The notes under the pieces are model-generated. The model did no database searches, had not been told where the DNA came from, and saw only the letters and a program-made list of their open reading frames with translations. The translations under genes and the position numbers were made by a program. From a virus, in IMG/VR virus record IMGVR_UViG_3300042542_004922, positions 1-22,693 of that record: a stretch of 22,693 bases of DNA; one strand, given 5' to 3'. This document shows positions 7,181 through 22,008 of this stretch, piece after piece (the stretch's first letter is position 1; every line of letters starts with the position of its first letter).

Positions 7181-10100
7181 ATGGCATATTTACAGCTACC
7201 CAACGGTAAGTATTTAAAAATCCCTGAAGGGATGTCCCCTGACCAAGCGTATGACGCGGCTTTAACAAAGTTTCCTAATCTACTAGACGAACCCCAGCAA
7301 AAAAAGGGCATTGGTGCGGCATTAGGAAAAGGAACGGAGTCCATGCTGGGCTCCTTGCGCACCGGCGCAGAAGCAATACTATCTCCAGAAGAAGCTGCTA
7401 AAAAAGGACTGCAACGCGGTCAAGAGCTTTCTGAAAAATATGCTGAACAAGTTGGTCTTGACCCCTTAAAAAAAGCATACGAAGAACGAGGCGTGCTAGG
7501 TGCGGGCGGTGAACTATTACGTCAAGTACCCCTAGCCATTGCTGAGCAAGCGCCTAATCTAGCAACAATGTTTGCTGGGGCTAAGCTAGGTGCCAGAGCC
7601 CCTATTCCGGGCGTTTACGGTAAAGCTATTGGCGCTGGTATTGGCGCTATTGCACCGTCTCTTTTACAGCAGTTTGGTACTAACGTTGAACGTCAAGCGG
7701 CTGAGCAAAAAGAAGCCGGGCAACCGATAGATATTAGTCGTGGCAAAGCGCTTGCTGCTGCCGTACCGCAGGCTGGCTTGGACGTTGCTGCTTCCTTTAT
7801 TCCGTTAGGCGGCAAAGTAGCCGGTAAGATTTTTGGCCCCGAAGTAGAACAGCTACTTATGCGTGGCGGTACAGAAGCTGCGGAAAGACTTGCGCAAGAA
7901 TCGTTTAAGAAAACGCTTGGCAAGGGCGTACTGGTAGGTGCAGCCGCAGAGATTCCAACCGAGATTACCCAACAGATGCTGGAGCGTGCCCAAGCCGGGC
8001 TGTCTTTAACGTCTGCTGATGCGCTTAAAGAGTATGGCGAGGTTGCATATCAAGCCGGTCTGTTGTCCCCCATTGGTGGCGCAGGGCGTTTTATTGATAA
8101 GTCTGGCGCTAGAGGCGAAATAGCTGCTCGGACAAAAGCTGAAGAAGACCGCATTGCACAAGAAAGCGCTCAGCAAGAGCAAGAAGCTATCTTAAACAAA
8201 CAAGCCATGGACGAAATGGCAAAAATTGCTGCGGAAAACAAGCCTACGTTTGCGCTTAATGAGCAACAGCTTGAAACCATGCAGAAAGAAATTAGTGCGC
8301 AGCGGTTTGACTACACCAAAAAACTTGATGATCTGCGTGCTGAAGCCCAAGGCGAAACAGACATTGATAGGCTTGTAGATATTGGCAACCGTGCTACACA
8401 AGTACAGACCATTCTTGACCAGATTTCTCCTGCCGGCATTCAAAAGCAGATTAAAGAGGTAGAAAAAAGCATCAAAGAAAAAGGGGCTGAACTAAAAGCC
8501 GCGCAAAAAGAAAAAGATGAAGAAGGTGCTGCTCGTTTAACGCAAGAACTTACTGGCATTCAAGACACTTTGGCAGAACTTAAAGCTAAGGCGCCAGCGT
8601 ATGCTGAAGTTGTGGCTGGTCCAGCGGCTAAATCCGTTAAAGATCAAATTGCCACCAAGTTAAAAGCCATTGATAAAGCCCGTGATACTGGCGATTTACA
8701 GGCTTTATCTAAGTTAGCCCAAGAAGTTAAAGCGCTTCAATCTCAGTATGGTGGCGAACAAACATCGTTGTTTGAAACAGACAAGCAAGGTTTTGCATAC
8801 CCGGAAGCTGAACGTCGGGAAACAATGCAGGCCAAAGAACTTGAAGAAACTCGCCCTGATATGGCGTTGGGTGCAGCTAAAACCAAAGAAAAGAAGCTCA
8901 TGGATGACGCCATGGCAATGCTTCGTGAGGACTTGCCTGAGCCTGAGAAAAAAGCAATTCAACAAATTCAAACACTGCCTATTGGGCAGTTGCGTGAGCA
9001 TTTAGCAAAACTAGAAGCTGACCGCCGTGAAGTTCTTAAAAACAATCCTGAGTTAACTGGGTTTGCGGCAAGTACTAAAAAACCTACTACGTACGAACAA
9101 CTTGCAAAGCAAAAAGGTATAACTGAAGAAACTCCAGCGCAGATTGCTGAAAAAGCTGCGTTTACTGAAGACGGCAAATATAAATTTTACAGTAGCGATC
9201 GTGCTGGCGTTGCGCCGGGCGGTTTAAAATCCGTACTTACTAAAGCGGGTAAAGATTTAGCCGTTATTGAAGATTCTATTCTTGCTACTCAGCAACGCAT
9301 TGACGAAGAAGAAATTGGCCTTAAGTTGCCAAAAGGCGAGGTTCCAAAATCTCTTTATGAGTTGCCGTCAGGTTATCCGGCTGCTAGCTACACACGTTTT
9401 GCCGAAGCAAACAAAGTTAATAGTGAGCAAAGCCTTGATGAATTAACTCAAACTTTGTTTAATTTGGGTAAAAGAATTGAAGATGACATTGCTAATACGC
9501 CTGAGCTGCTTAACAAAAAAATTGAAGGCTTGCGCGCTATTGTTATTAGAACAGCGCTTCGTGAGGTAGCGGCGCGTCGACAAGCTGAAGGCATGGAAAT
9601 GCTTACTTCAGCCGAGGCTCTTAAGTTGTCGTCTCGAATTGATGCAAATTTACGTGAATTAATTAACCGTCTTCCAGCGTTGCCTAAAAATCAAGTTATT
9701 GATGCAATGGGCATGGCAGTAGAGCCACGTGTTGAAGAACGTGGAAAACCTAGTCAAATTAAATTTAAAAAACAACAAGAAGAACTAGCTAATATTCGTA
9801 GCGAGCTAGTTAAAGTAAATGAAAAAGTAGCCGCTATTCTTAATACGGAGCGTGGTAAAGAGCTAAAAGCAGAACTGGCTGCCGCCAAAACACCACAACA
9901 AATACAAGCAGCAGAAAAGAAAATAAAAGCTCTTTCAAACATGGAGTTTTTAACACAAACAAAACGCAAACTAGAATCCCGTCAAGCGTATTTAGAAGAA
10001 CAACTTGGTGCTGCTGTTACAGGATCAAACATACAGCAAGTTATTGTAGAAAAAATGGGCAAAATCACTATTGATCCACGTGATCTTAGTGAACGTCCTT

Positions 10101-13100
10101 TTGCTAATTTAAAACGCGCCATTCAAATTATTAAGGGTGACATTGACGAAGCTAAAAATGAAGCAGCTATTGTCAAAGGTAAAGTACAAAAAATTACGCC
10201 TGATATTAAACAAGAGCGCGATCCAATTGCCGGGCTAAATGCGTTGCTTCCAAAAACAGCAAAAATAAACAAACTTAAATCTGAGCTGTACCAAGCGCAA
10301 AATGCGGCTAAGCCTGACGCTGACGCTATTAAAACGATTAAAAATCAATTAATTGATTCGGCTTCTGACAAACGTAGGGCTGCTTTGTACCTTGAAGAAA
10401 TTGAAAAAACCAAGGCTAAAGAAACTGCAGAAGCTATTGCCAAAGAAAAAGCCGAAGAATCCTCACCCGCTAAACCGGGTGGTGTTGATGTTGTTGGGCA
10501 AAAACAAGGCGAGTTGTTTCCTGAGTCTTTAGCTACTTTACGTTCTACCCCGCAAAACTTTATGCGGTTTTTGCAATCTACTGAGGTGTACAAACTTCGT
10601 GAAAAGCTGGGTTTGCTTGAAAAGAAAGACGTTGCGCTCTCTACAAAAATGTCAAAGGCGCCTACCTTAACTGATTTAAGAGCGCAACGTGAGCTTGTTT
10701 TAAATTTAAACCGTCTTGATGAAGTTGTTGCTAACTTTAGATGGAATGCCGCTCAACTGTGGCAAGGGCGCAAACCCATAGCAGATGCTCTTGAAAATGC
10801 AATAAAAGAAATAAAAACGGGCACAACACCTAAAATTGAAGAACTTAAAGAAAAACGTAAAAAGTACAACTTTAAACAGTACTCGCCTGAATACAAAGAA
10901 TTAAGTGCGCAAATTAGACGGCTAGAAATAATACTGGCTGACAAAAATTTTAAAAACGCAATGGAGTATGCTACGGCTTTAGGTACTTTTGATGCCACGG
11001 TAGATGAAAGAAACGCAGCTATTGAAGCTATTCAGGCGCGTATTCAAGATTTAACGGTACGTAACATAAAAGATGAGAAAAAAATTCTCGCTCGTATGGA
11101 GCGGCAGTACGCTAATCAAGCTTCGCCAGCAGCTAAAAAAGCCAAAGAATACGCAGATAAAGCCCGTGCTTTTGAAGCTACTGATAATGCTGTTGCCGCA
11201 GAAAGTTTAAAGCAACGTGTTGCTACAAAACGTATTGAAGAACAAAACCGTAAAGAAGCGTTGGAGCAGTTGCCTGTAATCCGTCGCATTACAGAACAAA
11301 CCCGTGCTTTTACTAAAGCTGATAACTCTAAACAAATTCGTTCGGACATTCGTGCACTTGAAAAGAAACTTGAAGCTGCTGCACCGGGTAGTTCCCAGTA
11401 CGCTAAACTTTCTGTACAGATTGGCGGTTTAAAAGCCGATTTAGACCGCGCTATACAGCCCTTGATGCGTAAAGTTGTACAAGCCGAAGTTATTCCTGAG
11501 CCAGCGGTTGAAAGAAAATCTAAAAAACAAGGTGTTCGTTTTGCACGAGGCCAAACAACAGGCTACACGTACCTTACGAAATCTGCTGAAGATATTGACA
11601 AGCTATTGGAAGAAGCACAAGAGGCGGCTATTACTCCTGAAGCTAAAGCAAGATTAATTGTACCGCCAACTAAAATAGTAGAAAAAGGCACTACTACATA
11701 TAAAGTTGCGGAAGTTAAATCAAAAGAAGTAGAAATACGTGACGAGCTAGAAGCAACTAAAAAAGAACTTGTTGAGCACAACCGAGAAGTTGCAGCTACA
11801 GAGAAAGCACTCAAAGGGGCCAAAACTCCTAAAAAGATTGCTGAACTTAAAAAACGTTTGGCTGGGTTACGCCAGTCTTCTACTAAGCAACGACTTGGTC
11901 AAAAGGTTGACGCGCTTACTAAAGAGTATCGTGAGATTCGGGCGCTTGGTACCGGTGTAGAAAGAATGCTGACTATAGCCGAAAGCGAGTCGCTCAAATC
12001 GTCCCGCCTTAATCCACTTAAAACCGGTGTTAAGCCATTACCTAGGCAAAAAGAAAGCGTTACCGGAGGAGCAACACGCCGTGAGTATGCAGAAAATGAA
12101 GCAGCTGAAGCAGGCATTCCGCGTGTAGATTACCTTAATGTTCTTGACGGTTTAGAAGGCGGCTTTAAGGCTCGTGACGAAAAAACACAAGGCGCTGGCG
12201 TAAGTCAGGCTGATGTAAACAAAGAGCTTGCTAAGATTAAGATGCCTAAAGGTTTGAAGATTACTGTTCTTGATAAGGTTCCTTCTAGTATGGCAGAGCT
12301 AATTCAAGCGCGTGGGTACGATCCTAAAACTATCCGTGGTTTCGTACTGGCAAGCGGTGAAGTAGTAATTGTTGCTGGCAACCACACCGATATTAAAGAC
12401 GTTAAATCTACAATCGCTCACGAGTTAATTGGCCACGTTGGCGTTGACGGGTTGCTAGGCGAAGCCGGTATGCGTGCTTTAGCTAAGAAAATTCAAAAGG
12501 ACGAAAACAGTGTATTTGAATTAGCTAAAAAACTGGGTGTGTTTGACGACGTGTTTGGCGCTTATGCTGCCGCTAGAAAGTACATGTCAGAAGAAGACGC
12601 TGTGCTGCACGCTGTACGTGAGTTAATTGCCCACGTTGAAGAAGCCTCGCCTAACAGAAGTTTCTTAGAAAAAGCCAACGCCTTTATTAAAGCAATGGTT
12701 GGTGCGTTACGCTCTGTACTGCGCAAGATGGGTTTGGATTTAGATATATCAACCAGTGATATATACAAACTGTTGCGTGATGCTCGGGCTAACTTTAAAG
12801 ACATGGCGCCCGGTGCGCACATTAACAAGATGGGTGAGATTGTATTTCGTTCTGCCCCTGCCGTAGCAAACGCTGGTTTTGAAAATGCACTAAATGCAAC
12901 TAAAGGTATTGTTGCTGAGCAAGCAGATTTAATGGATAAAGTAAAAGCTTTCTTTATTGGTTTTGAAACTAAGTATGTTGATAGATTTGCTCCTATACAA
13001 ACTGTTGCTAAAAAAATGACGGATTCGCTTAAAGCAACACAAATGATGTATTACCTGCGTATGCACGACCAACGTATGTCGTTTGTTTCTGAAATTACTT

Positions 13101-15433
13101 CTAACGGACCGTTGGATTTAGTTAAAGCTAGCGATGGTAAAGGCTTTGTAATTAGAAGCGTTAAAGGGGCAAACTTAGTTGATATGGTTGCCGCACTAGG
13201 AAAAGCACGGGTTGGTAACACAGAAGCTACTAAACGAGTCTTTACTTTGTGGATGATTGCTCAGCGTGTTAAAGATCCCCGTGTTGGTTTAAATAAACTA
13301 GACTTCTCCGGCAAGGTTACGCAAGAACTGCTTAATGAAGTTGAACGTAATGTAGCCGCAGACCCACAAACCAGCAAAGCTTTTAAAGAAGCGTCGGATA
13401 TTTACGCTAAGTACAACGAAGGTTTAATTAATTTTGCAGTTAAGACCGGCGCCATATCTAAAAAAGACGCTGAGGTTATGTTGCAGAACAAAAACTTTAT
13501 ACCGTTTTACCGTCAGCGGCCGAACTCACAAGAAGTGTTTCTTGAAATCGGTGGAGCGCCTGCAATTAAAATTGGTAACTTGACTGACCAGCCGTATCTG
13601 CACGAGTTGATTGGCGGTAAAGAAGCTATTTTAGATATATTTACAAGCGCTTTGCAGAACACTTCTATGCTTACAGACATGGCGTTGCGCAACAACGCTA
13701 CTAAAGAAGTGGCAAATTCCCTTGCTAGTTTGGGCATGCTTAAATCAAACCCTGACAGCCCTAAAGACAACGGCATACACAAAGGCGAAGGTAAGTTAGG
13801 TCCAAATACTATTCGTTTTAAAGTAGACGGTGAAATGTATTCGGCTGAAGTTGATACAAAGACTACAGACATTCCATCTGAGCTTTTGGTTAAGGGGCTA
13901 CAAGGCGTCAACACTTCTTTGCCACGCGTTGTAGAAATCCTTGGCGGTACAGGAAGTTTCTTACGTAAATGGATTACCCGCAACCCTGCATACGCATTAC
14001 GCCAGCTTATTCGAGACCCCTTAAACGCTGTGTTTGTATCCGGTTTAGACACCGTTCCGGTTGCAAGCTCTATTAAAGAAATAGCAAACATGTGGCGTGG
14101 TAAAAGTGAAGGCGAAATGCTTCTTCGGCGTAGCGGTATTTTAGGCGGGCAAGTATTAACCGGCACCACAGAAGACCAAAACAAAATTCTTAACGATCTT
14201 TTGTCAGGTAAAAAAGGCTGGGATTACTACATGGCGCAGCTAGATAAACTAGCAGTCCAAGGTGATGCTGCAACGCGTGTTGTAATGTACAACAACTTTA
14301 TGAAGCAGGGGCTGTCCGACATGGAAGCCACCTTAGCTACGCTTGAATCCATGAACTTTAACAAGCGCGGTATATCGCCTAGCTTGTTCCAGCTTTCCAT
14401 CATGGTTCCGTTCATGAACGCTCAGATTCAAGGTCTAAACGTCTTGTACAAGTCGTTCAGGGGGCAGATGCCTTTTGCTGAAAAACTTAGGGTTAAACAA
14501 AAACTTGTGCAACGTGCGTTAATGATGTGGGGCTTTAGTATGATTTACGCTTCGTTAATGCAGGATGATGAGGCATATCAGAACGCAAACGATGACGAAA
14601 AGTACAACAACTGGTTTGTGCCAAACCCATTCAGCGACGAGCACATCAAGGTACCTATTCCGTTTGAAATTGGTTTACTGTTTAAAGCCATTCCCGAAGC
14701 GCTTGTTAACACTATTTTTGGTGACGCTAAAGCCAAAGACGCCATGTCCGCAATCGCTAAAATGGCGTGGAATAACGTACCAAATATTGGACCTGCCGCT
14801 GTTAAACCGATAGTTGAAGTCGCAACCAACTACTCGTTCTACACAGGTCGTGATATTGAAAGCGCTCGTATGCAACAGTTTGAACCGGGCGAGCGTTACA
14901 CCGAACGCACTACTGAGATTGCTAAAGCTATTGGTGGCATGCTAAATATTTCCCCAACTAAGATTGAGTATTTAATAAGGGGCTACACAGGCTCAGTGCC
15001 GTTGGCTGTGGCATCTTTAGCAAACCCAGTCTTGCGTGATGGTGAAGGCGGTGAAAAACCTGATAGCCGAGGCATGGTAAGTAGTGAGACACCGCTAATT
15101 GGCACTTTCTTCCAGCCTAAAGACGCAAGCGGTTTAATTAACAAAGCGTACAGCGACATGAATGATGTCATTAAAGTTAAGCAAACGCACAACAAGATGC
15201 TTGAAGAAGGGCGTGATAAAGAAGCTCAGGCGTACGTTGATGCTAATGCTGACATGATGGGCATGTCTACAATGGCTGGTCAATTCCGGCAGAAAATGGG
15301 CGAACTAACCAAGCAAGAGCGTACAATTCGGTCGGCTACTGGTATATCAGGCAAAGAAAAACGGGAAGCGCTAGACGAAATTCGTCAAGCCAAGATCGAG
15401 TTAGCTAAAGAATTTTCTAGCGCACGCGAGTAA
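7181..15433 (+). CDS. giant 2750-residue ejection/polyvalent-type protein with HExxxH metallopeptidase-like motif
   Basis: One uninterrupted gene takes over a third of the window. Residues 1-35 (LPNGKYLKIPEGMSPDQAYDA) look like a short folded head. Residues 40-310 contain Gly/Ala-rich hydrophobic helices such as GKAIGAGIGAIAPSLLQQFG, suited to membrane interaction. Residues about 315-1650 are almost all Ala/Lys/Glu/Gln helix arranged as repeated helical hairpins. Residues about 1720-1830 carry HELIGH (1747-1752), an HExxxH zinc-site candidate, with a second acidic motif RELIAHVEE from E1814. The C-terminal 800 residues resemble the large-polyvalent-protein domain I know as LPD38: ITRNPAYALRQLIRDP at 2265, NFNKRG at 2392, PFMNAQIQG at 2410. 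Size and position match T7 gp16-like ejected proteins, but no lytic transglycosylase motif was seen. The start has only a weak AAGAG site 38 bases after the previous stop. That this is a coding gene is certain. The domain calls are inferred. Confidence 0.8.
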   Translation: MAYLQLPNGKYLKIPEGMSPDQAYDAALTKFPNLLDEPQQKKGIGAALGKGTESMLGSLRTGAEAILSPEEAAKKGLQRGQELSEKYAEQVGLDPLKKAYEERGVLGAGGELLRQVPLAIAEQAPNLATMFAGAKLGARAPIPGVYGKAIGAGIGAIAPSLLQQFGTNVERQAAEQKEAGQPIDISRGKALAAAVPQAGLDVAASFIPLGGKVAGKIFGPEVEQLLMRGGTEAAERLAQESFKKTLGKGVLVGAAAEIPTEITQQMLERAQAGLSLTSADALKEYGEVAYQAGLLSPIGGAGRFIDKSGARGEIAARTKAEEDRIAQESAQQEQEAILNKQAMDEMAKIAAENKPTFALNEQQLETMQKEISAQRFDYTKKLDDLRAEAQGETDIDRLVDIGNRATQVQTILDQISPAGIQKQIKEVEKSIKEKGAELKAAQKEKDEEGAARLTQELTGIQDTLAELKAKAPAYAEVVAGPAAKSVKDQIATKLKAIDKARDTGDLQALSKLAQEVKALQSQYGGEQTSLFETDKQGFAYPEAERRETMQAKELEETRPDMALGAAKTKEKKLMDDAMAMLREDLPEPEKKAIQQIQTLPIGQLREHLAKLEADRREVLKNNPELTGFAASTKKPTTYEQLAKQKGITEETPAQIAEKAAFTEDGKYKFYSSDRAGVAPGGLKSVLTKAGKDLAVIEDSILATQQRIDEEEIGLKLPKGEVPKSLYELPSGYPAASYTRFAEANKVNSEQSLDELTQTLFNLGKRIEDDIANTPELLNKKIEGLRAIVIRTALREVAARRQAEGMEMLTSAEALKLSSRIDANLRELINRLPALPKNQVIDAMGMAVEPRVEERGKPSQIKFKKQQEELANIRSELVKVNEKVAAILNTERGKELKAELAAAKTPQQIQAAEKKIKALSNMEFLTQTKRKLESRQAYLEEQLGAAVTGSNIQQVIVEKMGKITIDPRDLSERPFANLKRAIQIIKGDIDEAKNEAAIVKGKVQKITPDIKQERDPIAGLNALLPKTAKINKLKSELYQAQNAAKPDADAIKTIKNQLIDSASDKRRAALYLEEIEKTKAKETAEAIAKEKAEESSPAKPGGVDVVGQKQGELFPESLATLRSTPQNFMRFLQSTEVYKLREKLGLLEKKDVALSTKMSKAPTLTDLRAQRELVLNLNRLDEVVANFRWNAAQLWQGRKPIADALENAIKEIKTGTTPKIEELKEKRKKYNFKQYSPEYKELSAQIRRLEIILADKNFKNAMEYATALGTFDATVDERNAAIEAIQARIQDLTVRNIKDEKKILARMERQYANQASPAAKKAKEYADKARAFEATDNAVAAESLKQRVATKRIEEQNRKEALEQLPVIRRITEQTRAFTKADNSKQIRSDIRALEKKLEAAAPGSSQYAKLSVQIGGLKADLDRAIQPLMRKVVQAEVIPEPAVERKSKKQGVRFARGQTTGYTYLTKSAEDIDKLLEEAQEAAITPEAKARLIVPPTKIVEKGTTTYKVAEVKSKEVEIRDELEATKKELVEHNREVAATEKALKGAKTPKKIAELKKRLAGLRQSSTKQRLGQKVDALTKEYREIRALGTGVERMLTIAESESLKSSRLNPLKTGVKPLPRQKESVTGGATRREYAENEAAEAGIPRVDYLNVLDGLEGGFKARDEKTQGAGVSQADVNKELAKIKMPKGLKITVLDKVPSSMAELIQARGYDPKTIRGFVLASGEVVIVAGNHTDIKDVKSTIAHELIGHVGVDGLLGEAGMRALAKKIQKDENSVFELAKKLGVFDDVFGAYAAARKYMSEEDAVLHAVRELIAHVEEASPNRSFLEKANAFIKAMVGALRSVLRKMGLDLDISTSDIYKLLRDARANFKDMAPGAHINKMGEIVFRSAPAVANAGFENALNATKGIVAEQADLMDKVKAFFIGFETKYVDRFAPIQTVAKKMTDSLKATQMMYYLRMHDQRMSFVSEITSNGPLDLVKASDGKGFVIRSVKGANLVDMVAALGKARVGNTEATKRVFTLWMIAQRVKDPRVGLNKLDFSGKVTQELLNEVERNVAADPQTSKAFKEASDIYAKYNEGLINFAVKTGAISKKDAEVMLQNKNFIPFYRQRPNSQEVFLEIGGAPAIKIGNLTDQPYLHELIGGKEAILDIFTSALQNTSMLTDMALRNNATKEVANSLASLGMLKSNPDSPKDNGIHKGEGKLGPNTIRFKVDGEMYSAEVDTKTTDIPSELLVKGLQGVNTSLPRVVEILGGTGSFLRKWITRNPAYALRQLIRDPLNAVFVSGLDTVPVASSIKEIANMWRGKSEGEMLLRRSGILGGQVLTGTTEDQNKILNDLLSGKKGWDYYMAQLDKLAVQGDAATRVVMYNNFMKQGLSDMEATLATLESMNFNKRGISPSLFQLSIMVPFMNAQIQGLNVLYKSFRGQMPFAEKLRVKQKLVQRALMMWGFSMIYASLMQDDEAYQNANDDEKYNNWFVPNPFSDEHIKVPIPFEIGLLFKAIPEALVNTIFGDAKAKDAMSAIAKMAWNNVPNIGPAAVKPIVEVATNYSFYTGRDIESARMQQFEPGERYTERTTEIAKAIGGMLNISPTKIEYLIRGYTGSVPLAVASLANPVLRDGEGGEKPDSRGMVSSETPLIGTFFQPKDASGLINKAYSDMNDVIKVKQTHNKMLEEGRDKEAQAYVDANADMMGMSTMAGQFRQKMGELTKQERTIRSATGISGKEKREALDEIRQAKIELAKEFSSARE

Positions 15434-15594: not shown

Positions 15595-18444
15595 TTAAGT
15601 TTCCTCATCTTCGTACACAGGGCGGGTAATCTGCATCACGTTGACTCGCATAGTAGGACCACGGGTCTTGGACAACATATCTTTGCGCAGGTACTTAATC
15701 TTGTAGTTTGGCAAGCGCTCAAGCTGTTCCTTGAAGTCTTTGTAGCCGTAACTCATCGATACACAGTGCTGTTTGAGAAGCTGTTCCTCAATGAAATAGT
15801 CCACGTGTCCGGGTGTAAACCCATGCTCTACACGCCCAGCTACATCAGATCGGGTCAGCGACTGGTCAATATCCCCATTACCGCCTAGCGTCGCATCCAG
15901 TACACCGTTGAGGTTCTTAACTACTACGAACTTACCAAAGCGCTCACGGGTATAGGCGTTGAGTACATCTTCTGCATTGCGCTTGCTTCCATGGATAATG
16001 CCCCGTGCGCTGTACACCATCAGGCGCAGAACTTCTACGATCGGCTTGATGGGGATGTCAATCAGGTTGGCATACTTCTTACCAAGCAGTTGCACAATGG
16101 TTAGGATACAGGCGTTACCCGCAGTCCAGTACCGCTCGTCAGCGTTGGTCTCAAACTCGGTTTCTAAGTTTGCTTGGGTTTTCATCAATACTTGTTTGGC
16201 AACCTCACGGTTCTGTACCATCCAGCGGATTAACTCTAGCCCAACTACACCAAAGTTATCTTTAAGTAGCCCCAGCGTTGCGCCTTCTTCCGTCGTCCAC
16301 TTCAGCTTCTTGTTCATCTGCAACTCAAGAATACGGAACATCTCGCCCTGCGACGCATGCTTACGTGCGCCTGATAAGAAGTCCATAACGTGCGTATTCG
16401 ATGATAGAAGCACCAGCAGTTTCCATGTAGAGGTGTTGATGCGCTCCTCGTTAGAACCCTGCTTCATGCGGTCTTTGCCCTTACCCTGCGTTAAGTCAAG
16501 TAAGAACTCAGGCAACCACTCGAAGTCTTCACGGCTCTTGCTAGTGGTCTCGTCAATAATGAACGGCAAGCTGTTAAGCAAACCCTGACGCTGTTGCGAT
16601 GCAACAATAGATGTACTCTGTGTCACACGGTAACGCTCGGGGTGCCCAAAAAAACTAGCCGCCAGTTCAAGGGCTAAAGACTTACCCATTCCCGACTCAG
16701 AAGAACCAAGGTGATACACACAGCCGTTGAACTTGGTGAAGTTCATTAGCAAGCTAGCAGGTCCAACCAAAGCCATCGCTAGCACCGACCACTCTTCCTT
16801 GGCGATCAACATGTTAAACACCTTGCGCCAGTTTTCTATCGTGCCGGTCGGTACTGTGGACTGGTTGATGTTATCCAAGGCGGGTGTGGGTACGTATACT
16901 TCGCTTCCGGTGTAGGACAAAATCCGACTGTTGTATACGAACGTGTTGTCAGCCTGCCAACCACAGCTATTCGGTACCTTAACTGCCCGTTTGTTGGCGC
17001 TAATAAACTCCACACAACCACGGATGTAGTCAAACAAGTTCTTATCGTTACCTGAACCGTAAGCGGCAATCACGTTCTGATTGGCTAGCGCCTTAACTGT
17101 CTCGTCCTTACTTACGATGGACTTCTGTGGAATCAAGATGTCGACTGCGCCCTCGGGTCTAAAGGCAAGTAGATGCACCAAGTGGTCGCCGTTGCTGTTC
17201 AGAATGTCCACCGCAAACAAGTCGTATGGCAACAGCATGACCTGCTTGCGTGACTTACCCCCCTGCTCGTCTTCTACCATTCTGTCCATGAACACACCGC
17301 CGTTGCTGCCGAACGCAAAGCCTTTGGGTGGGGTTGGACGGGTGATGGTCTGCGGCGTAAGTACGGCTTCTTCTTCCTGCACGCGCTCAACTACTACCTC
17401 TTTCTGTTCTACGTCAACTTTAATCTCTCGACCTAGCGCTAACGGATTGGTGAACTTGTTGTAGTGTGGACACGTTTCGCATACTCCTGGATTAGCCTCA
17501 TCAAACTTGAGACAGCCGTAAGGCCCCTTGATGGCATGCCACTTCTCGTTGTGCCGAGCCGTGTCGTATGGGTGCATGGCAGAAATCGCCAAGCCCTCTT
17601 CTTCCCCATCATCGCAGTATTTAGCTATGCTGAGGACGCCACGCCATAGGGGCTCCATGCCGTCTTCAGTTGCATGTTCTTTGTAGTAATTGATCTGTGC
17701 GCACGTTTTGATGTTCTTAAAGTAGGTGGCGCTGTTCTCGATTAGCTTGACGCTGTTGGCATTGGGTGTTAGTTTGGGGCGTTTACCGGGCAGTTGGAGT
17801 GGGGGTAGGCTTTCGTACGACTGCTCACCAACGGCTTCCCGTAAGTGGTTTGATAGAGCCTCGAAGTTAAAGATGGTGCCCTTGACCTTGATAGATACCT
17901 TGCGTGGCTTGGTTTCTTTGTAATTGTGTGTATCAGGCACACGCAGAATACGGGCGCTATCACCAGTAACCGAAGCATCGATGTTAAAGTCGTGCTTCTT
18001 AGCCAACCGCTTAAGGTTCTCTGCAACAGGTTTCCATACAGCAACATCTACTTCTTCCTCGAACGGAAAGTAAACATGCAAGCCACCGCCACTAGAAATA
18101 ATGAACGGCGTGCCTAGAGTATTTAAGTCTGTGTCACCCAAGAACAAATCCAAAGCAGTAGCCGCTTGCGCTTTGTTCTCGTAGTTCTTACCCTTACCGC
18201 AGTCGATGTCCAAGAACAAAGACCTCATCTTCAAAGCGCTGTCGGCGGTGCGCTTCTTTTTATCATCAAACGATGCCAAGGCAAAGAAAGTGTTGTATCC
18301 CTTCCCATCAAACGCCATGGCGGCGTTGTACAACTCGTCAATCGTGTTGACAAATACGTGCTCTCTTTTTGCTGTGCTAATCTCGGCCGTGCAGTAAACA
18401 CCCGAAGACGGTAGCACAGTCGCTAGGAATTCCTGCGACGTCAT
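15595..18444 (-). CDS. AEP-type primase fused to a DUF927-like helicase
   Basis: A 949-residue replication protein. The N-terminal third has archaeo-eukaryotic primase motifs: LFLDID (D79, D81) for metal binding, SSGGGLH (H123), and NID at D156 with RVPDTHNYK (168-176). Four cysteines, C248, C311, C322 and C325 (the last three in CLKF...GVCETC), suggest a zinc or Fe-S site between the two enzyme parts. The C-terminal part has a P-loop SSESGMGKS (581-589, K588) and a Walker B FIIDE (628-632), as in DUF927/superfamily 3-like helicases. It would synthesise primers and unwind the phage genome. GAGAGG six bases before the ATG supports the start. It is the last gene of the minus-strand operon, 15 bases after a 55-codon gene and just before a terminator. 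The primase motifs are clear. The helicase family name is less certain. Confidence 0.85.
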   Translation of the reverse strand: MTSQEFLATVLPSSGVYCTAEISTAKREHVFVNTIDELYNAAMAFDGKGYNTFFALASFDDKKKRTADSALKMRSLFLDIDCGKGKNYENKAQAATALDLFLGDTDLNTLGTPFIISSGGGLHVYFPFEEEVDVAVWKPVAENLKRLAKKHDFNIDASVTGDSARILRVPDTHNYKETKPRKVSIKVKGTIFNFEALSNHLREAVGEQSYESLPPLQLPGKRPKLTPNANSVKLIENSATYFKNIKTCAQINYYKEHATEDGMEPLWRGVLSIAKYCDDGEEEGLAISAMHPYDTARHNEKWHAIKGPYGCLKFDEANPGVCETCPHYNKFTNPLALGREIKVDVEQKEVVVERVQEEEAVLTPQTITRPTPPKGFAFGSNGGVFMDRMVEDEQGGKSRKQVMLLPYDLFAVDILNSNGDHLVHLLAFRPEGAVDILIPQKSIVSKDETVKALANQNVIAAYGSGNDKNLFDYIRGCVEFISANKRAVKVPNSCGWQADNTFVYNSRILSYTGSEVYVPTPALDNINQSTVPTGTIENWRKVFNMLIAKEEWSVLAMALVGPASLLMNFTKFNGCVYHLGSSESGMGKSLALELAASFFGHPERYRVTQSTSIVASQQRQGLLNSLPFIIDETTSKSREDFEWLPEFLLDLTQGKGKDRMKQGSNEERINTSTWKLLVLLSSNTHVMDFLSGARKHASQGEMFRILELQMNKKLKWTTEEGATLGLLKDNFGVVGLELIRWMVQNREVAKQVLMKTQANLETEFETNADERYWTAGNACILTIVQLLGKKYANLIDIPIKPIVEVLRLMVYSARGIIHGSKRNAEDVLNAYTRERFGKFVVVKNLNGVLDATLGGNGDIDQSLTRSDVAGRVEHGFTPGHVDYFIEEQLLKQHCVSMSYGYKDFKEQLERLPNYKIKYLRKDMLSKTRGPTMRVNVMQITRPVYEDEET

Positions 18445-18459
18445 GTGAAACCTCTCGAG

Positions 18460-18627
18460 TTAGTGTGCGATGCCGGTGATTATTCTTGATGCAAAACGTT
18501 TTACAAGTTCTATTTGAAACTCTTTAGGCAAGCCGTCGCCGTAAACAAAATCTTCAGAGAATCGCAACAGTTCGTAGTCAGTAAGGGTTCTTGGATGTAG
18601 GGTTGTTTCTACTGGTTCTTTAAGCAT
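18460..18627 (-). CDS. 55-residue protein of unknown function
   Basis: A small reading frame fills most of the gap between the HTH gene and the primase gene. It starts 19 bases inside the end of the HTH gene, ten bases after an AGAGG site, and stops 15 bases before the primase start. The product has a polar start (MLKEPVETTLHPRTLTDYEL) and an amphipathic helical remainder containing FSEDFVYGDGLP and ELVKRFASRII. No cysteine, signal peptide or membrane segment is present. Composition is protein-like and translation coupling to both neighbours is plausible. I do not recognise a family. The assignment as a gene rests on context, the ribosome site and the absence of any other explanation for the gap. 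Confidence 0.6.
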   Translation of the reverse strand: MLKEPVETTLHPRTLTDYELLRFSEDFVYGDGLPKEFQIELVKRFASRIITGIAH

Positions 18628-18875
18628 TGTCTTAGCGCCTCTTCTGCTGTTTTACTGTTCTGTAATATGTTCAACAAAGACTGTACCCGTAACCGATATG
18701 AAGGCGTCACTTCCGTGCCGCTGAACCAGTTGTAAACCGTCTGCCTTGTTGCGCCTGTAAATTTTGCTACTTCAATAACTGGAAAGTCTAAGCTAATCGC
18801 CCACCGCCCCAACTGGTTGCCCAGCGTTTTTGGTGCGCTCTTTGTTGTATTTTTAATCTCGTCTGAGTAAGCCAT
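18609..18875 (-). CDS. small helix-turn-helix DNA-binding protein
   Basis: The 88-residue product has a basic, disordered first 15 residues. Residues about 18-52 form an HTH: GNQLGRWAISLDFPVIEVAKF, then a turn at TGATR, and the recognition helix QTVYNWFSG. This resembles the 'sxxTVxxWxxG' recognition helix of Cro/XRE-type regulators. A further helical segment (YRLRVQSLLNIL) could dimerise. It is likely a transcriptional regulator acting on phage or host promoters. Its target is unknown, and the palindrome at 20394-20409 in the same operon is a candidate. The ribosome site is weak, and a GC-rich hairpin ends 15 bases before the ATG. The gene overlaps the 55-residue gene by 19 bases. A role in replication initiation rather than transcription is possible. 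Confidence 0.75.
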   Translation of the reverse strand: MAYSDEIKNTTKSAPKTLGNQLGRWAISLDFPVIEVAKFTGATRQTVYNWFSGTEVTPSYRLRVQSLLNILQNSKTAEEALRQCLKNQ

Positions 18876-18890
18876 GATGTTCTCGTTAGT

Positions 18891-18906
18891 GGGGGCCGGA
18901 GCCCCC
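18891..18906 (-). promoter_or_regulatory. GC-rich hairpin between the cysteine-rich peptide and HTH genes
   Basis: GGGGGC / GCCCCC form a perfect six-base stem around a four-base loop. On the transcribed strand it begins four bases after the stop of the peptide gene and ends 15 bases before the HTH start codon. It lacks a following T run, so it is not a standard terminator. It could damp translation or mark an RNA-processing site. Confidence 0.55.
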
Positions 18907-18910
18907 TATC

Positions 18911-19063
18911 TTAAAAGCAAGTTGTGTTGCAGTTCCCACCGTTACAACACGTTGTACAGACCATAAATTTACCATCGGGAGTAGAAATGGTAGAAGTTGT
19001 ACATGATGCGTAAACAGAAAATGCCGTTAGGGATAGTACTGCGGTAAGAATAAACTTATTCAT
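18911..19063 (-). CDS. exported cysteine-rich 50-residue peptide
   Basis: A short gene with a strong GAGGAG ribosome site seven bases before its ATG, overlapping the end of the SSB-like gene by eight bases (ATGAATAA). The product begins with a textbook Sec signal peptide: MNK, a hydrophobic core FILTAVLSLTAFS, and a V-Y-A cleavage site before residue 20. The mature part would be about 31 residues, rich in Thr, Asn and Gly, with six cysteines (C21, C36, C39, C40, C45, C49), the last five in the motif CTTCCNGGNCNTTC. Such a peptide would reach the periplasm and form disulfides or bind metal. C21 is close to the cleavage site, but the preceding Tyr-Ala-Ser is a poor lipobox. Its location among replication genes does not explain the export. 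I do not recognise the family. Superinfection exclusion or envelope modification are guesses. Confidence 0.75.
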   Translation of the reverse strand: MNKFILTAVLSLTAFSVYASCTTSTISTPDGKFMVCTTCCNGGNCNTTCF

Positions 19064-19958
19064 CGTCCCACTCCTCAACAGTAGAGGCTAAGCTACTAGC
19101 TTTCTTGGCTGGTACTGCGCTTGCCTTTGTTGCTGGCTTACGCTTCTCAGGCTCGTCTACTTCTTCAGTTTCAACTGCAACTTGCGCTACTTTGGCTTTA
19201 GCTGACGGCTTAATTCCTTCGAGGGCTAGCGGCTTGTCAACAGGTTTGGAAACGCTCATGGTCACAGCCAATTTCGCTTCTGTGGACTCGCCCTTCTTAA
19301 CGGCTACTGCGTACTCGTCGTCCTCTAACCAACGTACTGGTTGGAAAAACAACTTGGGTACTGCGGCTTTTGTATCAAAACGAAGACGTGTTACAAGTGT
19401 CTCAGGGTTGATGCTTTGTGCGGCAAGGTAACGAGCGTAGGCTTGTAGTGGGCGTTTGTCGCCTTCTTCCTTACCAAAGATGGATGTAGCGGCTAGGGTC
19501 AACTGCATTACGTCACCCTGTACATCGTTCGCTAAGACTACTGCAAGGCGCTGTGAGAAACGGCAAGCCTTAGATTCGCCTTGGCCTGAGCCTTTGACGT
19601 TCATTGGGCATGATGCGCAGTCGTTTGCTTGTGGCTCTTCAATAGATGCGTCGGGCTTGTCACCGTCAGCTGACCAGCAATCGGGTCCTTTTGTTTCGCC
19701 TTCAACGTATTGCCCAGCGTAGAAAGTACGGCTAATCTTCGGTGCCGCATTGACAATAACAACATCAAGGTGACGGTCGTCGATTGAGGTAATTTCTTTA
19801 CCGTCAGCCATCAAGCGGAATACACCGCCTTTGATCGAGATGCGCTTGGTACTGCCGCCGCCCGTGCCGCCGGTAAGGCTCTTGGTTAATGCAGATAATT
19901 CACCCTTGCGTGCAAATGCTGGGGTTTGATTCGGGTTAAAGCTGGCTAGATCGCCCAT
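19056..19958 (-). CDS. SSB-like DNA-binding protein with Cys4 site and acidic C-terminal tail
   Basis: With the start chosen here the product has 300 residues. A disordered Gly/Ser/Thr-rich N-terminus leads into a beta-rich core (RISIKGGVFRLMADGKEI, LDVVIVNAAPKISRTFY). Then follow four cysteines, C94, C114, C117 and C132, spaced C-x19-C-x2-C-x14-C, which probably bind zinc. A second core part ends near residue 240. The last 60 residues are a Lys/Ala/Glu/Pro linker ending in the acidic tail STVEEWDDE. A folded core, flexible linker and acidic tip is the architecture of phage single-stranded DNA-binding proteins such as T7 gp2.5, although the zinc site differs and the tail ends in Glu rather than Phe. 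Neighbouring helicase and primase genes agree. A longer start at 19973 overlaps the upstream stop but has no ribosome site. Confidence 0.65.
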   Translation of the reverse strand: MGDLASFNPNQTPAFARKGELSALTKSLTGGTGGGSTKRISIKGGVFRLMADGKEITSIDDRHLDVVIVNAAPKISRTFYAGQYVEGETKGPDCWSADGDKPDASIEEPQANDCASCPMNVKGSGQGESKACRFSQRLAVVLANDVQGDVMQLTLAATSIFGKEEGDKRPLQAYARYLAAQSINPETLVTRLRFDTKAAVPKLFFQPVRWLEDDEYAVAVKKGESTEAKLAVTMSVSKPVDKPLALEGIKPSAKAKVAQVAVETEEVDEPEKRKPATKASAVPAKKASSLASTVEEWDDE

Positions 19959-19965
19959 AATACTG

Positions 19966-19971
19966 CTCCTC
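19966..19971 (-). promoter_or_regulatory. ribosome binding site fixing the SSB-like start
   Basis: GAGGAG on the minus strand lies seven bases before the ATG at 19958 and downstream of the alternative ATG at 19973. It therefore supports initiation at the second methionine (MGDLASF). Confidence 0.8.
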
Positions 19972-20380
19972 ATTTGGTTGGTTTACGTACTGTTACTGCA
20001 TACTCCGACATCGAGTTGAGCCCGGCTGGCACTACACCCGGGTTCTCTTCTAAAAACATAGACATATTCTTCTGCGCTATGCGCTTCTCAAACAGGTCTA
20101 GTGCATCGTGTTCTACAACAAAGTTCTTAAATGAATCCCAGTCGTCTGTGTAGTAACGAGTTTTCTGTGACAAGATGATAGTGCCTTCTTCTGTCCGCAC
20201 CGAGTTCATACCCAGCGCCAACATCTGATCTTTCATGGCGTTCTTAATTTCGTCTTGCTTTGCTTTGAGTTCTTCGATCTCACTTTCATACTGCTTGGTA
20301 AGTTCTTGAACCTTTGCGTACATCTTACGATATACACGTGCTAGTTTATCTAGCGGTACTACTTCCTCTTCGTTTGGCAT
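19970..20380 (-). CDS. coiled-coil protein of the replication operon, function unknown
   Basis: A 136-residue protein. Residues about 5-55 are a charged helix with coiled-coil character (LARVYRKMYAKVQELTKQYE, EIEELKAKQDEIKNAMKDQM). The second half has short strands (SVRTEEGTIILSQKTRYY) and helices (WDSFKNFVVEHDALDLF), ending with a conserved-looking GVVPAGLNSMSEYAVTVRK. The long helix followed by a T-x-E-G-T-I strand recalls phage Gam-like or Gp157-like proteins, but the similarity is too weak for a name. AAGGAG six to seven bases before the ATG is a strong ribosome site. The gene ends three bases inside the longer form of the SSB-like gene. It begins directly downstream of a palindrome and candidate promoter. 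A role in protecting or organising DNA ends, or as a partner of the SSB-like protein, is inferred only from context. Confidence 0.7.
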   Translation of the reverse strand: MPNEEEVVPLDKLARVYRKMYAKVQELTKQYESEIEELKAKQDEIKNAMKDQMLALGMNSVRTEEGTIILSQKTRYYTDDWDSFKNFVVEHDALDLFEKRIAQKNMSMFLEENPGVVPAGLNSMSEYAVTVRKPTK

Positions 20381-20448: not shown

Positions 20449-22008
20449 TTAAAAATTAATTTCTTCCTTGTACAAGTTCAGCAAGAGGTCGTGCCCTGCA
20501 ACACGTTTCTCTAACTGTTTAAACATGCGCTTCTCTATTTCACTGCCTTGCAAATGTATTACGGTTACGTTAGTCGAAGTTTGCCCGATGCGGTCTGCTC
20601 TTGCGATGCACTGCAAGTAGGTTTCGACGGACATGACTGGGCCATAAAACACCACGGTATCTGCCGCTGTTAATGTTACACCATGCGATGCGGCTTGCGG
20701 CTGAACAACGAGTATACGGGGGTCAGCGGCCGACTGAAAGCGTTTGAAGATGTCTGTGCGTTTGTTAACGCTTACATCACCGTGTATCACTTCACTGGCT
20801 ATGTTGTGTCTGAGTAAGTGCGCGTTGATTGCCTCAATGCTGTGCCTAAATGGTGCGAACACAATAACCTTGCGACGGGTTTCCTCAAGTACTTCCAAGA
20901 GCACGTTCAATCTAGGCGAACAGTCAAACTCTACTACCTCGTGGTCGTCGGTGTAGGCGGCGCCTGCGGAGATTTGTAATAGTTTGGATACACCTGCCGC
21001 CGCATTGACGGCAGTAATCGTCTCGCCCGATGCCTGCATAACCATAAGGTCTTTGAGCATGCGGTAGTACTTGACCTGTTGTGGCGTAAGGGGTATTTCA
21101 CGGGTCTCGGTAAGTACGGGTGGCAAGTCGGTACACTCTTCCTTGGTGTATCTAATCGCTGGCTGAAGGGCATCAAATACGTCCTGCTGAGCGTTACGTT
21201 TTGGCGCCCACTTAAACTTGGATAACTTGTTCATTACTTTGTCACGCCATGCGGTAGCGAACTTGGGTACACCTAGGGGGTTTACTAGCTTGGCTAAGCC
21301 GTACGCATCTATGGGCGACTGTGCGGCTGGTGTGCCTGTCATCATCCACAGCATGGTGTCAGGCTTTAGTATCTTGTTGAGGGACTTCCAGCGCTGTGTT
21401 GATGGGTTCTTGTAGGCGTTTGCTTCGTCCACAATCACAAGGTCGAACTTGCCGTTGGCAACAACTTCATCAGCGATCAGGTTCAGCCCATCGTAGTTAA
21501 CTACTACGAACTCGTAGTCGCCTTGTACCATCTCGATGCGCCGTGATGCCTGTGAATGATGCGCCGCAATGACTGAACGGTGAATGATGCTCTTGCCGAT
21601 ACTACTTATCCAAGCGTCGTGCATGATGGACAGGGGGCATAGAATCAGGCAACGCCGTACATGTTTAAGGTTCATCAAGTAATCAGCCGCCCACAAGGCA
21701 GAGAAGGTTTTGCCAGTACCGGGGTCGTTAAAAACAAAAGCCCGTCTGTGCATAGTTAGAAAGCAAGCGGTATCTACTTGGTGTGCAAACGGCTTGAACC
21801 GCCCCGGCCAGTCGTACTTAGCGGTAATCGGTGATGGTGCGTTCTTTACGCCTAGGTTGCGGAGCACACGCGTTTCGTCTAACCCCCAGTACACGGCTAC
21901 TTCAAACGTGCCGTTGTCTTCGCTGACGATTTTGCTTCTAGGTATAACGCTGTACTTGTCGGGGTTGCGTGTCTTAAACAGCAACGCTTTGTTTTCTATG
22001 ATCTGCAT
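20449..22008 (-). CDS. SNF2-type superfamily 2 helicase
   Basis: A 519-residue DNA-dependent ATPase with the full motif series. Q77 lies in FAHQ, the Walker A is NDPGTGKT (K100), and the DEAx box is VIVDEANAYKNP (D194, E195). TGTPAAQSP at 224-232 is motif III. The second RecA lobe has VIVFAPFRHSIEAI, VIHGDVS, VVQPQAASHGVTLTAAD, and motif VI IARADRIGQT with R470 and R473. The RxxRxGQ form and the G-V-T-L segment are typical of SNF2 proteins. Such enzymes translocate along duplex DNA, displacing proteins or remodelling forks. Here it probably works with the primase-helicase, the SSB-like protein and the nucleases. No extra targeting domain is present. Its start overlaps the upstream stop by one base (TAATG), with only a weak AGGA site, so translation coupling is likely. 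Confidence 0.9.
   Translation of the reverse strand: MQIIENKALLFKTRNPDKYSVIPRSKIVSEDNGTFEVAVYWGLDETRVLRNLGVKNAPSPITAKYDWPGRFKPFAHQVDTACFLTMHRRAFVFNDPGTGKTFSALWAADYLMNLKHVRRCLILCPLSIMHDAWISSIGKSIIHRSVIAAHHSQASRRIEMVQGDYEFVVVNYDGLNLIADEVVANGKFDLVIVDEANAYKNPSTQRWKSLNKILKPDTMLWMMTGTPAAQSPIDAYGLAKLVNPLGVPKFATAWRDKVMNKLSKFKWAPKRNAQQDVFDALQPAIRYTKEECTDLPPVLTETREIPLTPQQVKYYRMLKDLMVMQASGETITAVNAAAGVSKLLQISAGAAYTDDHEVVEFDCSPRLNVLLEVLEETRRKVIVFAPFRHSIEAINAHLLRHNIASEVIHGDVSVNKRTDIFKRFQSAADPRILVVQPQAASHGVTLTAADTVVFYGPVMSVETYLQCIARADRIGQTSTNVTVIHLQGSEIEKRMFKQLEKRVAGHDLLLNLYKEEINF

Follow-up and report, generated by a model that had tools for sequence, protein, structure and literature searches.

Several small phage proteins act at the envelope of the infected cell after export. 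Among these, T5 Llp and the Cor proteins of phi80 and N15 block reinfection, and the T4 antiholin RI acts in the periplasm to control lysis. In the T4 replication cluster, the gene for Spackle (gp61.3) adjoins the primase gene 61. Spackle is a small, early periplasmic protein with a cleaved signal peptide and a disulfide bond, and it inhibits the gp5 lysozyme to cause superinfection exclusion (PMC7677548, PMC7650644).

The window, which is the whole stretch of 22,693 bases that was analyzed, is an IMG/VR virus record and is possibly a fragment. An earlier note had described within it a 50-codon gene with a GAGGAG ribosome site and an 8-nt overlap with an SSB-like gene. Reading the sequence confirms this gene (Table 1). 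On the minus strand, an ATG at 19063 opens a frame whose stop ends at 18911 and whose product has 50 amino acids (MNKFILTAVLSLTAFSVYASCTTSTISTPDGKFMVCTTCCNGGNCNTTCF). The GAGGAG is located 7 nt upstream of the ATG, and the frames overlap by 8 nt, with the SSB-like frame (19973..19056) ending at 19056. All six cysteines fall in a mature part of 31 residues, the last five as CTTCCNGGNCNTTC, just as had been claimed.

Table 1. Features of the mini-protein locus and its operon, in window positions.
Feature	Position	Strand	Basis
Predicted exported cysteine-rich mini-protein gene, 50 codons (stop counted in)	18911..19063	(-)	Sequence, homologues, dN/dS
Shine–Dalgarno GAGGAG of mini-protein gene, within SSB-like gene	19071..19076	(-)	Sequence; SD-like motif in 177/182 family loci
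Signal peptide, residues 1-19 (MNKFILTAVLSLTAFSVYA), predicted cleavage between A19 and S20	19007..19063	(-)	A-1/small-3 rule
Predicted mature peptide, residues 20-50, six cysteines (C21 C36 C39 C40 C45 C49)	18914..19006	(-)	AlphaFold2 mature part, cysteine register
SSB-like gene (PHROG 27714), directly upstream, 8-nt overlap	19056..19973	(-)	PHROG match
Upstream operon gene, 136 aa (PHROG 13900, labelled minor head protein)	19970..20380	(-)	PHROG match
SNF2-type DNA helicase, same operon	20449..22008	(-)	Listed operon part
Helix-turn-helix regulator, 88 aa, downstream	18609..18875	(-)	Listed downstream gene
Primase/helicase, 949 aa, same operon	15595..18444	(-)	Listed operon part

The term SSB-like is our reading from family and position; the label of PHROG 27714 itself is "unknown". 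The label "minor head protein" on the 136-aa gene looks wrong for a position in a replication operon. A GC-rich hairpin (GGGGGCTCCGGCCCCC) without a T run is present at 18891-18906, between the mini-protein stop and the helix-turn-helix gene; it is kept in loci L002-L005 and replaced in L006. A scan for promoters and terminators was uninformative. The plus-strand frame 7181-15433 encodes 2750 residues. Its product carries Pfam LPD38 close to the C-terminus and, deeper inside, a zincin-like HELIGH motif, and is probably a large polyvalent virion protein ejected into the host.

Conservation and selection

A single-query scan of IMG/VR with the window peptide yielded 6 relatives. An alignment scan yielded 181, of which 80 were taken, and two DNA patterns gave at least 119 and at least 64 matches. 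Removal of duplicates left 183 contexts, and 184 distinct coding sequences were obtained when those found via the neighboring gene are included. Relatives are encoded at about 180 IMG/VR loci. The mature part contains six or eight cysteines in all family members, and never an odd number. The window protein has the family pattern Cx13-14CxxCCx4-5CxxxC together with a signal peptide and an early operon position; members with eight cysteines keep the same six positions. An SD-like motif is found at 177 of 182 family loci (97%), compared with 14% at random positions. Over close pairs, which were found by pattern, dN/dS is 0.10 (0.12 for the signal and 0.08 for the mature part).

Because the DNA patterns select for the cysteine motif, a second set of loci was collected through the SSB-like gene alone. 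In this set, 75 loci extend far enough downstream to show the peptide, and 28 of these encode it with the identical overlap (-8 or -11); dN/dS in the set is 0.22. The TTC motif varies here (VTC, STC, TFC), and therefore only the cysteines, and not the threonines, are truly invariant. The earlier note had proposed a test for dN/dS well below 1 across relatives, for which the values are 0.10-0.22, and had considered absence of the frame from related phages to count against the gene. This absence is partly borne out, since the peptide is missing from 47 of the 75 phages that share the SSB-like gene, whereas all 28 carriers retain the frame, the signal peptide, and the six cysteines. The reality of the gene and purifying selection on it are well supported.

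Predicted export and fold

The signal-peptide rule applied here calls for a basic start, a hydrophobic core, and small residues at -3 and -1. This rule is passed by 182 of the 184 family coding sequences, but by only 12 of 366 other SD-preceded small ORFs (3%), a background set of 45-60 codons drawn from the same loci. None of these other ORFs has six cysteines. Every one of the 184 members has A at -1 and a small residue at -3 (an A-x-A site) just before Cys1. The signal peptides vary in sequence and length, and their overall plan is kept. By these computed measures export is well supported, and the previous claim of a clear signal peptide gains support from the simple rule.

We rejected a lipoprotein of the Llp type, with a lipidated Cys at +1. 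There is no lipobox: Y or W predominates at -3 from Cys1, and N or T is often present at -1. A signal peptidase I site of the A-x-A type is kept where the lipobox would stand.

AlphaFold2 modeling gave a pLDDT of 73.8 for the full-length mini-protein and 92.9 for the mature part alone. In the latter model, strands 2-8, 14-22, and 25-30 form a three-stranded β-meander on which the cysteines are in cross-strand register. The pairing was derived from strand order (8 opposite 14; 22 opposite 25) and not from coordinates or distances. With this order, the residue numbers of facing partners add up to 22 within the first hairpin and to 47 within the second, and the predicted disulfides are C2-C20, C17-C30, and C21-C26 in mature numbering. 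The predicted fold is well supported by computation, and the broader proposal of the earlier note that an exported, disulfide-type cysteine-rich mini-protein is encoded in a replication operon is supported.

Members of the eight-cysteine subfamily have two extra cysteines, always both. The Ca-C1 and C3-Cb spacings are both 6 in 23 of 23 members, across two turn lengths, and the extra pair is in register with C1-C3 in all 23, although the relatedness of these sequences means that they do not count as 23 separate events. The C2-C4 and C5-C6 spacings are largely fixed by the search pattern and were not counted as evidence.

Genomic context and distribution

The gene upstream of the mini-protein is on the same strand at 160 of 176 loci, with a median gap of 8.5 nt and 62 overlaps. 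An SSB-type acidic tail (e.g., DDDIPF) ends this gene in 50 of 145 cases versus 40 of 2479 other genes; the P value for this enrichment is only indicative, being inflated by shared ancestry because related phages are not independent. Other upstream genes encode NinB, PD-(D/E)XK nucleases, ERF, and the SSB-like PHROG 27714. Judged by these family matches, the upstream neighbors appear to be genes of early type. Downstream genes are varied (helix-turn-helix regulators, ERF, endonuclease VII, DNA polymerase), and no recurring downstream partner was found among the family loci.

Exactly one copy of the gene is present in each of the 40 viral records that were searched whole, 30 of which are 34-65 kb. 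The upstream genes fall into 57 clusters. For 76 of 182 peptide pairs with ∼85% identity or more, the upstream genes come from different clusters and are unrelated. The occurrence of similar peptides behind unrelated genes indicates that the gene moves as a single-gene cassette. Loci L327 and L329-L334 encode, immediately behind the SSB-like gene and with the same 8/11-nt overlap, an unrelated protein of 80 residues (MSKLTQEQ...). The position after the SSB-like gene is an exchangeable slot, which holds this protein or the mini-protein in sister phages.

PHROG, Pfam, and PDB searches by sequence and fold returned no relative of known function. The window protein matched no PHROG, and its one Pfam match (E 0.079) was far below the cut-off; 103 members gave only weak, scattered Pfam and PHROG matches. 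Foldseek comparison of the predicted fold with PDB mini-proteins gave E values of 0.57 or worse, with VIA Z at most 3.7. Two proteins of uncultured Caudovirales in BFVD are full-length structural matches, A0A6J5M8Q5 (49 aa, 42% identity, E 0.0017) and A0A6J7VK77 (46 aa, 34% identity, E 0.054). These are probably family members already in UniProt, and the name "Lipoprotein" given to the first is automatic.

When INPHARED was searched by tblastn with the window peptide and four other subfamily queries, only two carrier records were found, both from Manatee Spring. One query detected them at E 0.001 and another weakly, and the others found nothing. In one of these records (L266, MW202462.1), an antisense hypothetical CDS is annotated at 817-1059 over the unannotated mini-protein gene. 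The earlier expectation that routine gene calling would miss the gene is thus supported by the one INPHARED carrier inspected.

No family member was found on plasmids. A DNA pattern run against 84,980 prokaryote species genomes gave one true match, on a phage-like contig from a pond MAG of Alphaproteobacteria, where ERF-like and SSB genes lie upstream of the mini-protein gene. This was one exact pattern that reads a single spacer length and requires TTC, and the absence from bacterial genomes should be read with this limited sensitivity in mind. A profile search of 142 genomes from the order of the pond MAG gave no further match. The terminases of carriers are of unrelated types, nearest to those of Caulobacter phages, Pseudomonas phages, and the Rhodoferax P26218, methylophage, and pelagiphage types. 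These types point to several lineages with relatives among the phages of Proteobacteria.

No description of the family was found in the open-access literature. By every library searched the family is new, whereas its broad kind, the early exported phage proteins, is known. Some members may be present, without a description, in the large catalogs of small phage genes that PMC11323111 cites.

Candidate functions

The early-type position of the gene, the export of its product, and its mobile single-gene habit suggest an envelope function soon after infection. We tentatively favor, with a probability of roughly 0.4, an early Sec-exported periplasmic mini-protein that alters the host envelope, most specifically for superinfection exclusion, in the manner of Spackle but not homologous to it. 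The protein would be translated early from its own ribosome site within the replication operon, exported by the Sec pathway, and cleaved after A19. In the periplasm, the mature part would be oxidized to yield a three-stranded β-meander stapled across its strands. It would then alter the envelope of the infected cell soon after DNA entry, and could exclude a second phage by binding either the penetration machinery of the incoming phage or a host envelope component used by that phage.

We infer the step from export to exclusion, and likewise the timing of expression, the disulfide pairing, the periplasmic action, and the target. A search of the 22.7-kb fragment revealed neither a virion lysozyme nor a receptor-binding partner, and therefore a Spackle-type target stays conjectural. 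Exclusion alone leaves the frequent position behind ssDNA-binding genes unexplained, which early expression would explain. The earlier note had offered the exclusion of competing phages or the neutralization of a periplasmic factor; this fits everything seen and stays a suggestion.

A role in counter-defense or host takeover is unlikely on balance but deserves serious weight. The peptide would then bind and block a protein of the host periplasm or membrane (a protease, a cell-wall enzyme, a stress sensor, or an envelope-located defense), helping its own phage and not excluding others. An early operon position, a single-copy accessory gene, patchiness (28 of 75 sister loci), and mobility are typical of host-interaction genes. 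However, nothing ties the peptide to any particular host target, and its near-absence from bacterial genomes leaves no co-occurrence signal.

It is improbable that the mini-protein regulates lysis timing as the periplasmic antiholin RI of T4 does. A small exported protein would suit this task, and an endolysin gene is located within four genes in a few carriers (three endolysin matches among 127 downstream neighbors), but most of these lie on the opposite strand. Furthermore, the constant neighbors are replication and recombination genes rather than holin or spanin genes.

The earlier note had left the choice between disulfides and metal binding open. The vicinal CC and CxxCC motifs are potential metal ligands, but we consider a periplasmic metal-binding or thiol-redox peptide very improbable. 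Disulfides appear likelier than metal binding because the cysteine number is always even and the extra cysteines were gained as cross-strand pairs. In addition, the alignment has no invariant His or acidic ligand set, and exported cysteines normally are oxidized. The idea of a released signal or antibacterial peptide acting on neighboring cells or phages seems far-fetched: a small, probably stable, secreted scaffold would be suitable, but the mature part is close to neutral (net charge 0 to +2 in most members) and no recurrent immunity or receptor gene is found beside its gene. Finally, one might suspect that a short frame missing from many sister phages arose by chance across the end of the SSB-like gene. 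This is refuted by its conservation in unrelated phages, at about 180 loci, together with purifying selection, a ribosome site, and a signal peptide.

We see even odds that these loci represent a large undescribed family of exported, disulfide-laddered β-meander mini-proteins, a shared envelope-acting early module that travels, as a single-gene cassette of the recombination/ssDNA-binding operon, among phages of aquatic Proteobacteria that are otherwise unrelated. At 50 codons, such a widespread gene family tends to escape annotation, and it yields strong predictions (exported, disulfide-stapled, early). If an envelope or superinfection block is true, then it would be common for aquatic phages to compete for or reshape the periplasm with a shared portable module, which would also supply a very small genetically encoded β-sheet scaffold.

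The known systems differ from the mini-protein in instructive ways. T4 RI serves lysis control, whereas the mini-protein gene is located in replication operons and not with lysis genes. T5 Llp is lipidated, whereas the residues before Cys1 of the mini-protein misfit a lipobox and its A-x-A site is kept. A homologue of T4 Spackle was considered and rejected, as the AlphaFold2 mature part (pLDDT 92.9) is all β and not a helical bundle, and is much smaller. Spackle has 97 amino acids (75 mature), an all-helical fold, and one disulfide, compared with 50 amino acids (31 mature), a predicted all-β fold, and three or four predicted disulfides for the mini-protein, and the two have no sequence relation. 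The proposed likeness is in position and behavior, and in this respect Spackle is a working precedent for an early exported protein that gives exclusion.
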